NCBI GenBank assembly: GCA_014874265.1
Contig: JACWAM010000052.1
Coordinates: forward strand, 1-42,883
DNA from: Thermoleophilia bacterium
GTDB taxonomy: Bacteria; Actinomycetota; Thermoleophilia; BMS3ABIN01
DNA length: 42,883 bases
Direction of reading: 5' to 3'
A program made the translations under genes and the position numbers. Of this stretch, positions 1 through 12,880 are shown one piece after another (the first letter of the stretch is position 1; every line of letters starts with the position of its first letter). Below the pieces are notes generated by a model. It did not search any database. It had not been told where the DNA came from and worked only from the letters and a program-made list of their open reading frames with translations.

Positions 1-2849
1 AGCTTAAGCGCCACTGACGCGGTGTTGATGCCGGTGCCGCTATTGTCCGCGTAGCCGGCGCTGACGGTGGTGGCGGCGCCGGTGATGATGCCGCTGGGCT
101 GGACGTTGGTGACGGTGGGTGGGGTGGCGGTGGCGGCAAAGTTTAACATGAGCTGATACCCCTCCGGGCTGCCCCATCCAGTCGGCGGATCCCAGCCCGG
201 CCCGGCAGAATAATCGCCACTGGCAAGGCCGCTGTTTGCGCCGCTCCAGTTGGAGCCGCCATCCGTCGATTTGGAAAAGCCCCCCTGATTGCTTCCGGCG
301 AACATCGTCCCGTCAGTTCCATAGCCGGGAGAAAATGCGAGAGACCAGACCAGCGGGCCGGGGCCGCCGGAACCGGGTTGACTCCAGGTGGCGCCGCCGT
401 CGGTTGACTTGAAAATGGCGCCTTCCGGATAGGCGCTGGTTGAGGCCGTGCCAACCAGGATCGTTTTGTCGTTGTCGAAGTTTGGCGATATGGCAAGCGA
501 TTGCACCACCGAGCTTATGGCGCTAATGCTTCCTGGGTAGGCCAGCAGGCTCCAACCGGCGCCGCCATTTGTTGACTCATAAAGGACACCGTTGTCATTA
601 CTGTCTACGCCGCCCGCAACCATAGTTTGATTGCTAAGATTATTTTGCGAAATGGCAAGCGCTGAAATGAAAGTGCCGGTGGCGATCCCGGCGCCCGTGG
701 CGCTCCAGGTGGAGCCGCCGTCAATGGATTTATAGACGCCCTTTGTAGTGGAGGCAAAGAGGGTGTGGTCGCTGGCGAAGTTCGGGGAGACGGCCATCGC
801 GTCAACGATTGAGCCGGATGGCAGACCCGTATCATTCGCGCTCCAGCTGCCGCCGCCGTCGGTTGACTTGTAAACGACGCTGTTATCATTGGCATCAGCG
901 CCGCCAATGAAAATCGTTTTATCGCTGGCATAACCAGGCGAGATAACTGTCGCGTAACAACTTTCGCAAACCGCACCCGAATTCGAGTCGACCGGGAGTC
1001 CGGTATTGACCGCGCTCCAGCTGTCGCCGCCGTCGGTTGATTTGTACTCCCCGGTATATTTGCCCGCGAAAATTGTCTTGTCAGTGGCAAAATCCGGGGA
1101 AATAACTATTTGAGTAGCAAACGGAAATGTGCTTGCATCGAAACCGCTGTTTACCGCGTTCCAACTGGCCCCGCCGTCGATTGACCTAAAGGCGCCGGTG
1201 GCCGTGCCGGCAAAGAGGGTGTGGTCGGTGGCAAAGTTCGGCGAGACGGCCAGCGACCACACCGTGTTTGTGCCGCTGTTGCTTCCCGATGTTACGTCGT
1301 GCATTACTGTAGAGTAACCGGACGAGTTTGCCAGCTGATAAAGCCGGGCTGCGAAGACTCCCAGCCGCCTGCTTTCGTTCTGACCGATCTCGGCCGCTAA
1401 CGCCGACGCAAACGGGGCGTCGATGCTGGTGCCGCCATATTCCCCCCATTGACCGGAATCATACACTGGCATTCCTGTAAAGGGATCAGCATCCATGGAA
1501 AAATCTGTTATCCAGCGATTGCCGTTGGCAAAGTATGAAGAACCTGTCTGCCAGGACGGCGCTTTCTCAATAATTGAAAATCCCCCGCCGGTGGCGTCCT
1601 TGCTGGGAAGACCCTGGTTGTCATTCCAGACCGTTTCAGCGGCGATTCCATTTGATCCGTTCAGCTGCAGCGAGGTGCCTCCCATCGCCGTGACGTAGGG
1701 CGACGCTGCTGGGTAGTCAACCCCAAATTCACCGCCGCCGCTACAGTTGGCGCCGTAGTCGCCGCCTGCCATAAACCATGTCTGGCCCTGTGCGGCGCCC
1801 TGCTCGATGATGCCGTCGACTTGAGACAAACCACCACCCCAGATGTCCTCACAAGCTCCCCAGGATGTGGTAATGGCATCAGCCTTGTTGTCGGTGACAA
1901 TCCGGTTAAATTCCGCGGCCCAATCGCTAAAGGTATTGGGCGCCATATAGACAAGCTCATTGGCGCCGGGAGCAAGCGATGTTGACCATTCTATGTCCAT
2001 TGTGGTCTCGTCGGCGCCATAGGTCGTTCCCGGATTCGAGTCCACCACGATACGGCTGAGACTGGCCGGACTGTACCCAAACCAGGTTTCAAAGGTCTGT
2101 ACGTCGGAATCGCTATAATCGGCAAATGTCGCCACGGCAATGGTCCGGCCGCTGCCGTTATAGCCGTGCTCATTCGGGTAATCGTAAGCGGTGGAAATCT
2201 GGGCGGGCGTATAAGGAGGAGGAGGACCGGAAGCCTGCGCCGGGGCGGCGGCTCCCGCCGGGCGGGCGGTAAAACCCGTATGAAGCCGGGTTGAGTCAAG
2301 CCCCTGGACTGATTTGACGAGCCCGGCGAGTCCCGCCGGAACCCGGGGCGCGCTCTGGTTCGCAAATTCTTGCTTTCCGTGAACTTCATATTGATGGATT
2401 TCCGTTTTAAATGCGCTTTCGGCCTGGGCCGCCGTGCCGCTGGCGCTTATCACCTGTCCACTGGAATCTTTCCCGATGGTGAATCCATTTGCGGCCAGAA
2501 AGCTTTTGACATAATTATAGTCCTGTGCGGTAGGTCCGTATATGCTGAGAAACTGCGCCGGCGTGAGAAACTTGTGATAAGAAGGGGAGCCGGGGTTGTT
2601 TTGTGCCGCGATTAACTCATCCAGGCTTTTCTGGTTACGCAAAGACAGGACAACCGCAATATTGATGGGCGTTTCCGGCGCGACCTTTCCCCGGTCAGCT
2701 CCTTCCATGGCAATTGATGATTTTCCCTGCGGCAATTCAACCTGAGAGGGCGCATTTGCCGCCAGCAGCGTTTGGGAAAATAACGCAAAAAACAGCAAAG
2801 TCAAACTGTATAGCAGCAAACCTGATTTAACTACCAGACTTGATATCAC
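1..2849 (-). CDS. Secreted S53 family (sedolisin/kumamolisin-like) serine-carboxyl peptidase with prodomain and an internal seven-repeat Asp-box beta-propeller; C-terminus truncated by window edge
   Basis: Open frame read through continuously from GTG at 2849 (SD AAGGAAG upstream) to base 1; frame checked at 2849, 1304 and 218 (same phase). Signal peptide (LLLYSLTLLFFALFSQTLLAANA), pro-kumamolisin-like prodomain (INIAVVLSLRNQKSLDELIAAQNNPGSPSYHKFLTPAQF), catalytic motifs DETTMDIEWSTSLAPGA (E-x3-D), AGGDYGANC (oxyanion Asp), GGTSIDAPFASALAA (Ser), Ca site halves MHDVTSGSN and AGPGWDPPTGWGSP. Not in the supplied ORF track, probably because it runs off the edge. Confidence 0.93.
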   Translation of the reverse strand, partial: MISSLVVKSGLLLYSLTLLFFALFSQTLLAANAPSQVELPQGKSSIAMEGADRGKVAPETPINIAVVLSLRNQKSLDELIAAQNNPGSPSYHKFLTPAQFLSIYGPTAQDYNYVKSFLAANGFTIGKDSSGQVISASGTAAQAESAFKTEIHQYEVHGKQEFANQSAPRVPAGLAGLVKSVQGLDSTRLHTGFTARPAGAAAPAQASGPPPPYTPAQISTAYDYPNEHGYNGSGRTIAVATFADYSDSDVQTFETWFGYSPASLSRIVVDSNPGTTYGADETTMDIEWSTSLAPGANELVYMAPNTFSDWAAEFNRIVTDNKADAITTSWGACEDIWGGGLSQVDGIIEQGAAQGQTWFMAGGDYGANCSGGGEFGVDYPAASPYVTAMGGTSLQLNGSNGIAAETVWNDNQGLPSKDATGGGFSIIEKAPSWQTGSSYFANGNRWITDFSMDADPFTGMPVYDSGQWGEYGGTSIDAPFASALAAEIGQNESRRLGVFAARLYQLANSSGYSTVMHDVTSGSNSGTNTVWSLAVSPNFATDHTLFAGTATGAFRSIDGGASWNAVNSGFDASTFPFATQIVISPDFATDKTIFAGKYTGEYKSTDGGDSWSAVNTGLPVDSNSGAVCESCYATVISPGYASDKTIFIGGADANDNSVVYKSTDGGGSWSANDTGLPSGSIVDAMAVSPNFASDHTLFASTTKGVYKSIDGGSTWSATGAGIATGTFISALAISQNNLSNQTMVAGGVDSNDNGVLYESTNGGAGWSLLAYPGSISAISSVVQSLAISPNFDNDKTILVGTASTSAYPEGAIFKSTDGGATWSQPGSGGPGPLVWSLAFSPGYGTDGTMFAGSNQGGFSKSTDGGSNWSGANSGLASGDYSAGPGWDPPTGWGSPEGYQLMLNFAATATPPTVTNVQPSGIITGAATTVSAGYADNSGTGINTASVALK
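219..1262 (-). repeat. Seven tandem Asp-box (BNR/Ycf48-like) protein repeats, 45-53 aa each, within the S53 CDS
   Basis: Repeats with core SPxFxxDxTxFAG...(K/R)S(T/I)DGGxSW at 1116-1262, 957-1115, 807-956, 669-806, 510-668, 354-509, 219-353; lengths 49+53+50+46+53+52+45 = 348 aa, exactly filling 1044 nt. Confidence 0.92.
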
Positions 2850-3383
2850 AAGACTTCCTTTCTCACTGCCGCCATAAAGCAGATACCGGTTCCAGGATAC
2901 AGGATTTTAAATATAACAAAACAAGCAGATCCCCCGGTCACTTCGCTTTCCCGGAATGACAATTTCGGGAGCCTCCTGATAAATTTGAATGATCAACGTA
3001 TTCAAAGTCCGGAGTCCAAAATCCAGGATCTGGTTTTTTGCGGCTATCGGTGCCGGAACGGAAACATTTAGCTTTCAAGCAGTCTTTTCTTGCTTGAGAT
3101 TCGGCTTCGCTACGTGCAGACCGTCATCAAATCCCTCTCAGATATATTATCGGCTTTCCAAAGCGAGATATGCGGTCTCAGCGGAGGGAATATCCCCCTT
3201 GCCGCTTAAGGGGAAAAAGCCGTTCGGGACCTGAAGACATTAAAATCCGTCAGGGTTCGATGAGATCGTGCCTTAGCGGGGCCGAAGCGAAGCAAGCAGG
3301 AAGGACTAAACTGCGCGCCCGACCCGTTCCCTGCGGACCGTCATGATTTGAACTCATCCGTGGCTCATGCGAGGATAACAATT

Positions 3384-5060
3384 ATGGACGGTTCACCGGC
3401 GAATAATTATAAGATCATTGCCATGGTCGGCGCGCTGCTGGCCATGCTGCTGTCGGCGCTTGATCAGACGATTGTAGCCACCGCTCTGCCACAAATCGTT
3501 AGGGAATTCAACGGGCTGGAGCACATGAGCTGGGTGTATGCGTCCTATCTGATCGCCTCCACCGTCGCCATCCCGATCTATGGAAAACTGTCTGACATCT
3601 ACGGCCGCCGCGGTTTCTTTCTGGGCGGCATCGTTATCTTCCTGGCCGGCTCAATCTTAAGCGGCCTGTCACAGTCGATGCTGGAGCTGATCCTGTTTAG
3701 AGGTCTGCAAGGGCTCGGCGCCGGCGCCATCATGGTCAACTCAATCGCCCTCATCGGCGACCTGTTTACGCCGGCGGAGAGGGGGCGCTGGCAAGGGCTA
3801 ATCGGGGGCGTCTACGGCATCGCCAGCATCGCCGGGCCGCTAATGGGAGGCTGGCTCACCGACAATATCAGCTGGCGGTGGATTTTTTACATTAATCTGC
3901 CGCTGGGGGCGCTGGCGCTGATTGTAATCGCGACAACCATGCCGCGCATCAGGCCCGAGAGAATGGAGAGCTCCATCGATTACTGGGGCGCGGTGTCGCT
4001 GGCGACGGCGCTGGTGGCGCTGCTTTTGGGGTTTGTCTGGGGCGGCAGCGAGTATCCCTGGATCTCCCCCCAGATTATCGGCCTGTTTGCCGCCACGGGG
4101 GTGTTCCTGCTGCTGTTCATGATTATTGAGGAGCGCGTTCGCTCGCCCATCTTGCCGCTGGGCCTGTTTAAACACCGCGCTCTGAGTATATCTTCGGCAG
4201 CAACCTTCCTGATCTCGTTTGCCATGTTCGGCGCTGTCGCCTTCCTGCCGCTTTACGCTCAGAGCGTAGTCGGCTTTTCCGCCACCAACTCGGGCCTCGC
4301 GTTGACGCCGCTGATGTTGGGCGCTGTTTTTTCCAGCGCGACCGCCGGTCAGATGATCAGCCGCCGGGGAACTTACAAGTCGATGGCCATCGGCGGCATG
4401 GCGCTATCGGCGCTGGGTATCTATCTCTTTTCACACATTTCAGTAGATACGTCAGAACTGACGATGGTGGAATATATGGTGCTGCTCGGCCTGGGCATCG
4501 GCGTATCCTTTCCCATCTATACCATCGTGGTCCAGAGCGCTTTTGACCGCAGCAAGCTGGGCGTGGTGACCGCCGCCATCCAGATGTTTCGCAGCATCGG
4601 TAGCGCCGTCGGCATCGCCGTGATGGGCAGCCTGCTTAACAACGGTCTTGCCGGCAGGCTGGCAAACATTGCCTCCAACCCGTTCGTCCGCTCCGTCAAA
4701 CGCATGAACCCGGCGACGCCGCTAACGAATATCAATGCGGATACGCTTCAAAGTTTTCTTGCCGGTGAGGGGCGCCAGAAACTCAAGAGCGCCGTCGCCG
4801 CCGCGCCCGTGCCGCAGCGAGACCAGCTGGAGCAGGGTCTGCTTCACTTCATCCACACGCTCAAGGAGGCGCTGGCCAGCTCCATCGCCAACGTTTTTTT
4901 CGTGACGATGTTCCTGGTGCTGGCGGCAACGGCCTTGACGCTGCTCTTGCCGGTGATTAATCTCCACCCGCTAAAAAAACGCCCCCTCCCGGAAGAGGTC
5001 GGCGTCGAGCTGGAAGCGGAGTTGGCTCTGGCGGAGCCGGAAGACGAGCCGGAACTTTAA
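3384..5060 (+). CDS. DHA2-type (EmrB/QacA) MFS multidrug efflux transporter, about 14 TM
   Basis: [105 protein letters not shown]-type motifs. ORF track starts at TTG 3348; ATG at 3384 preceded by GAGG is the likelier start. Confidence 0.92.
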   Translation: [558 protein letters not shown]

Positions 5061-12280: not shown

Positions 12281-12880
12281 TTACTTGGCCGCCCCCTCTG
12301 CGGCCTTGGCCGCCGTCTTCGCGGTTTTCTGCGACTTGGCAGCCGGCTCAGGCTCGGGTTCGATTCCCAATATCTCGGCGACGGTCTTGCCCCGGAGCTT
12401 GGCCAGTGCTTTTGGATCCTTAAGCGACGCCAGCCCGTCGATGCTGGCCCGGACCATGTTGATCGGATTGGTGGTTCCCAGACATTTCGCCAGTACGTCG
12501 CGCACGCCCGCCAGCTCCAGCACCGCCCGCACCCCGCCGCCGGCAATAATGCCGGTGCCAGGAGAAGCCGGTTTTAGCAGCACCCGGCCGGCGCCGTAAC
12601 GCCCCAGGATCTGATGCGTGATCGTGTTGTTGTGCTTGGGCACGGTGAACATATTCTTCTTCGCATCTTCCACCGCCTTTTGGATCGCCAGCGGCACCTC
12701 TTTCGCTTTTCCATAACCGACGCCAACCCGGTTGACCGTGTCGCCCACGACCACCAGCGCCGTGAAGGAGAAGCGCCGGCCGCCCTTGACCACCTTGGCA
12801 ACGCGGTTGATATGGACTACTTTCTCCTGCAACTCCGGCCCTTTGCGGCCCAATTCGATTTTCTCATAAGCATCGGCCAT
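12281..12880 (-). CDS. rpsE: 30S ribosomal protein S5 with Ala/Lys-rich C-terminal tail
   Basis: [60 protein letters not shown]; tail [26 protein letters not shown]. Confidence 0.96.

Follow-up and report, generated by a model that had tools for sequence, protein, structure and literature searches.

The window, the whole stretch of 42,883 nucleotides analysed here, carries at one end a gene for an S53 serine-carboxyl peptidase whose calcium site is split by an in-frame insert of seven Asp-box repeats, a predicted seven-bladed propeller nested within the catalytic domain. A second species of the genus (G004) displays the same layout, with the insert at the same residue, whereas the calcium loop is uninterrupted in a same-genome paralogue and in the syntenic gene of the sister species G005.

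Domain Architecture

The window is all of contig C34 of a 2.0-Mb metagenome-assembled genome in 126 contigs. The S53 open reading frame (3-2849, minus strand) comprises 949 codons with no stop and runs off the contig end, leaving the C terminus of the protein fragmentary. Its features, from the N terminus onwards, are the following:

2760..2849, minus strand: N-terminal signal peptide, approximately residues 1-30 from a GTG start, assigned by reading the sequence (hydrophobic stretch LLLYSLTLLFFALFSQTLLAA)
2292..2696, minus strand: pro-kumamolisin activation domain, residues 52-186 (PF09286, E 3.9e-34)
1278..2222, minus strand: S53 catalytic domain, first part, residues 210-524 (phmmer to kumamolisin 1t1e, E 4.5e-55)
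1979..2107, no strand: 129-bp exact repeat shared with the end of contig C37 (C37 1-129), an assembly-graph fork (exact match)
1995..2009, minus strand: catalytic Glu281 and Asp285, motif ETTMD (kumamolisin alignment)
1419..1436, minus strand: catalytic Ser475 motif GGTSID (kumamolisin alignment)
1278..1298, minus strand: putative calcium site, first half, DVTSGSN, residues 518-524, including D518 and V519 (alignment; ligands by analogy with TPPI)
219..1277, minus strand: insert of residues 525-877 (353 aa) with seven Asp-box repeats, a predicted seven-bladed propeller (relatives with and without it; Asp-box count)
135..218, minus strand: S53 catalytic domain, last part, residues 878-905 (second phmmer domain, query 880-905)
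189-206, minus strand: putative calcium site, second half, AGPGWD, within GDYSAGPGWD, which starts at residue 878 (nt 218 downwards)
3..134, minus strand: start of an Ig-like tail, truncated by the contig end (nearest: the tails of G005:C36 and G004:C4)

The propeptide scores 118 bits against PF09286, for which the Pfam cut-off is 23.5, and alignment with kumamolisin places E281, D285 and S475 at the catalytic positions and D364 at the oxyanion position. Family searches gave no S9 match in the window protein, the catalytic domain matching S53 and not the alpha/beta-hydrolase of prolyl oligopeptidase. Kumamolisin 1t1e aligns to residues 47-528 and then to residues 880-905, the insert being jumped (phmmer); since it aligns only on both sides of the insert, the view of the preliminary description that the propeller is nested, and is not a C-terminal appendage, holds. 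The full tails of G005:C36 and G004:C4, closest to the truncated Ig-like tail, match Big_13 below cut-off (Pfam). AlphaFold modelling of the whole protein together with two relatives (three sequences) gave a pLDDT of 31.

The Calcium Site

The calcium ligands of human TPPI are D517, V518, G539, G541 and D543 (PMC2914745), and all five positions are kept in the window protein as D518, V519, G883, G885 and D887, in the same D, V, G, G, D order and likewise with Trp preceding the final Asp. The S53 signature D-[IV]...GxGxD is thus found near the C terminus, split by the insert: V519 and G883 lie 364 positions apart, compared with 21 for V518 and G539 of TPPI. That the insert divides the site and leaves the S53 motifs intact, as first proposed, is borne out by the aligned ligand and catalytic residues. 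The G004 protein preserves the ligand pattern, but Ala replaces the first Gly, a residue that, being glycine, probably acts as a backbone ligand in TPPI. Calcium binding by the window protein is predicted by analogy of the ligand residues.

The Insert and Its Asp-box Repeats

The insert had been described as 348 aa and exactly 1044 nt; it is indeed in frame between the two calcium half-sites, but it measures 353 aa and 1059 nt. The claim of seven repeats proved exact: Asp-boxes occur at residues 556, 604, 662, 708, 759, 815 and 861, and the remainder of the protein contains none, whereas 20,000 shuffles of the insert gave a mean of 0.04 and a maximum of 2. The repeats follow the tandem pattern [ST]-x-[DN]-x-G-x-x-W at a spacing of about 45-58 aa and, on a parse of the sequence, run in phase, each of the seven units having its own Asp-box. 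Pfam places Sortilin-Vps10 and, sub-threshold, BNR in the insert, in line with the BNR/sortilin type foreseen for it, and the repeats match Sortilin-Vps10, BNR and PSII_BNR. A profile of the two known inserts matches GH74 xyloglucanases, 3b7f and designed propellers in the PDB, of which GH74 and 3b7f are solved seven-bladed Asp-box propellers. AlphaFold of the insert alone (single sequence) gave a pLDDT of 33.

In a 2009 survey, n-bladed Asp-box propellers carried at most n-1 Asp-boxes, mostly with Velcro closure, the exception to such closure being 3b7f, so that non-Velcro propellers exist (PMC2716378). As parsed here, the insert, with seven Asp-boxes in seven units, departs from this n-1 pattern.

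Empty and Filled Sites in Relatives

The DITxGxN and GxGWD motifs are linked by a short loop in kumamolisin, in the paralogue on contig C27 and in the syntenic G005:C36, which agrees with the short loop that the preliminary description gives for known sedolisins and kumamolisins. Both genomic relatives are empty sites: (i) the C27 paralogue, from the same genome, reads DITSGNNGAYQAGTGWDPPSGWGSP, with the uninterrupted loop DITSGNN-GAYQAGTGWDPPSGWGSP; and (ii) G005:C36, from the sister species and embedded among neighbouring genes about 90-99% identical to those of the window, reads DITSGSNGDYAAGTGWDPPTGWGSP, with the uninterrupted loop DITSGSN-GDYAAGTGWDPPTGWGSP. The calcium loop is also uninterrupted in the S53 proteins of G001 and G002. 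The filled site of G004:C4, on the other hand, reads HDITSGDN, followed by 325 aa with seven Asp-boxes and then GYYSAPGWDPPTGWGSP; its reading frame of 1433 codons is internal to a 46.5-kb contig. The insert is present in two of the six species of the genus.

A query joining the S53 domain to two repeats finds matches in 94 of 399 genomes of the class, a few of them in the repeats alone; only the window and G004 give close matches that cross the S53-repeat boundary. The Ser motif and GxGWD are separated by 411 aa in the window and 382 aa in G004, as opposed to 53-83 aa in the remaining S53 frames measured (a few frames yielded no measurable distance). Among these frames, the long gap that the preliminary description had proposed as a gauge of how widespread the insertion is singles out these two. 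Beyond the class, itself partially sampled, partial samples of the phylum (398 genomes) and of one other phylum (399 genomes) gave no further S53-repeat junction with a query that more diverged or different inserts may escape; scans of viral contigs likewise added no relatives. The literature searched, with partial coverage, contains no description of an S53 peptidase with a propeller.

Three candidates were set aside: (i) an apparent 454-aa gap in L101, a false motif match; (ii) a Lactiplantibacillus plasmid match to residue 612, which ran beyond the annotated end of the S53 gene and involves no insertion; and (iii) L168 (G763:C17), considered as a second junction, in which the calcium loop is intact and the repeats come after the S53 domain. 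L168, as read by eye, is a C-terminal version of the pairing of S53 with Asp-box-like repeats.

Origin of the Insert

The genus is rich in secreted stand-alone Asp-box proteins, which are a possible source of the insert domain. The window and G004 inserts share 51% identity by MAFFT; in a separate comparison the G004 insert resembles a stand-alone propeller encoded by the G004 genome (60%) more than it resembles the window insert (46%). Blade by blade, the two inserts score 780 in register and 798 when shifted by one, values that favour neither a single nor a double origin. On these comparisons the domain may have been inserted once and later homogenised, or inserted twice.

Among the stand-alone Asp-box proteins of the genus, L046, L047, L050, L052 and L056 are large, secreted and rich in repeats, and some proteins of this kind end in a YTYP-terminus domain, common to the C27 S53 gene. 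A further repeat, of the type YFWTWYD...NWVLLANP...ASQRVL, accounts for many of 31 matches in the genome of the window, G000 (C2, C10, C16, C22, C23, C36, C64, C93 and others). In several of the S53 and Asp-box proteins found in the genus it makes up the C-terminal portion; it has no Pfam family match in G004:C4 or G005:C36.

Proposed Working and Alternative Readings

The architecture, the intact motifs and the empty and filled sites directly support a kumamolisin-like S53 protein with a nested repeat domain. In the reading preferred here, held at about an even chance, this protein would be secreted and activated by propeptide removal, with predicted protease activity, and the propeller would serve as an exosite or attachment module on the calcium loop. 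The whole Asp-box domain would sit at the tip of the calcium-binding loop, its seven complete in-phase units most likely forming a seven-bladed propeller. In-phase repeats that each bear an Asp-box should bring the two ends of the ring side by side, an arrangement that suits insertion into a loop: the chain would enter and leave through the loop with the calcium site undisturbed, and the calcium clamp would hold the propeller rigidly on the catalytic domain. The predicted target of the module is a substrate protein, a glycan or the cell surface. Models of fungal sedolisins place an insert close to the calcium site apart from those that border the binding pocket (PMC6278154), for which reason an exosite or attachment role is preferred to a lid.

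An alternative with a modest claim, though unlikely, is that the insert is real but nearly neutral, a genus rich in Asp-box repeats occasionally landing them in a tolerant surface loop. Consistent with this are its occurrence in two of six species and its absence from the syntenic ortholog, a patchiness suggesting that the insert may be dispensable, as well as the greater similarity of the G004 insert to a stand-alone propeller of G004 itself (60%) than to the window insert (46%). Arguing otherwise are the completeness and phase of the repeats, of which both species have exactly seven, the open frame maintained over 1059 nt and the shared junction residue.

Rather doubtful, in turn, is the possibility that the insert couples calcium to folding, the S53 loop closing the repeat ring and folding, calcium and propeptide removal becoming interdependent. 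Seven in-phase repeats, each with an Asp-box, would leave no free N-terminal strand for Velcro closure; in the 2009 survey, no Asp-box propeller had as many Asp-boxes as blades (PMC2716378); and EDTA blocks the maturation of TPPI (PMC2914745). The coupling is nevertheless purely inferential, and non-Velcro propellers such as 3b7f are known (PMC2716378). The strongest form of this idea, in which the calcium loop acts as the clasp of a Velcro-less ring and calcium, closure and zymogen maturation constitute a single folding switch, would be a long shot.

It is equally improbable that the propeller gates the active site in the manner of prolyl oligopeptidase, limiting substrate size. Bacterial oligopeptidase B does share the topology, with its seven-bladed propeller (residues 77-404) between two parts of the catalytic domain (PMC8533160), but the present insertion is at the calcium loop, and the fungal sedolisin models separate the insert near that site from the ones beside the pocket (PMC6278154).

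Assembly and the Upstream Join

An assembly artefact or chimera as the source of the insertion itself, an error that the preliminary description had named among its possible refutations, is highly improbable because G004 has the same layout inside a 46.5-kb contig, and the insert junctions lie outside the 129-bp repeat, more than 700 nt away on the N side and more than 1700 nt on the C side. At least one species thus genuinely has the insertion, and the window species very probably does too.

The doubt touches only the choice of N-terminal half. The join between the N-terminal half and the propeller half is uncertain because of the 129-bp exact repeat, at which the S53 gene of C37 stops, and a misjoin at this point is about as likely as natural recombination. 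Pointing to a misjoin are (i) the exact match with the end of C37; (ii) a drop in identity to the syntenic G005 gene at the repeat, from 91% (residues 40-210) to 62% (residues 292-524); (iii) disagreement between the trees of the two halves, the N-half tree grouping the window with G005_C36 at 100/100 and the C-half (catalytic) tree rejecting that grouping (p-AU 0.024); and (iv) a fragment on contig C43 of G000 (12470-12607), 89% identical to the final 46 codons of the G005:C36 ortholog, which suggests where the window gene or its true allele ends. Recombination among paralogues would, however, give the same picture. The propeller-bearing half may accordingly belong with the N-terminal half on C37, which leans weakly to G004 in the N-half tree (72/79), or the gene may have recombined. 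A search for a contig continuing the window end found none. The two S53 genes of G003 (C52 and C64) share a 118-bp exact match, and exact repeats between S53 genes could mark either a gene conversion hot spot or an assembly-graph fork.

Comparison with Known Systems

Kumamolisin and sedolisin (1t1e, 1ga1) likewise comprise a propeptide, Glu-Asp-Ser, an oxyanion Asp and both calcium half-sites, but their half-sites are joined by a short loop, whereas those of the window protein are 353 aa further apart. CSI3, a cluster-specific insert of fungal sedolisins, also lies near the calcium site; it is described as an unconserved solvent-exposed loop and not a repeat domain (PMC6278154). Prolyl oligopeptidase and oligopeptidase B (S9) similarly nest a seven-bladed propeller in a serine peptidase chain, but their catalytic fold is unrelated and their propeller faces and gates the active site. 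GH74 xyloglucanases, 3b7f and sortilin belong to the same repeat family as the insert; in these the propeller is the main domain, with fewer Asp-boxes than blades, whereas the window insert is nested, with seven in seven repeats. L168 also combines S53 with Asp-box-like repeats, but downstream of an uninterrupted calcium loop.

A repeat domain nested in a metal site is informative on how far a conserved fold can open. The empty and filled pairs within one genus offer ready material for asking whether a plug-in propeller changes what a protease binds, and also bear on whether a host loop can substitute for the closure of the propeller itself. Serine-carboxyl proteases are further of interest as acid-stable enzymes.

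Genomic Surroundings

The S53 gene is adjoined by a gene for an MFS-type transporter (window 3348-5060), followed by a long cluster of ribosomal-protein genes with rpoA, rpoB, rpoC, fusA and tuf (window 5064-38539), all named from the translations by eye. Of these neighbours, those closest to the S53 gene are syntenic in G005.
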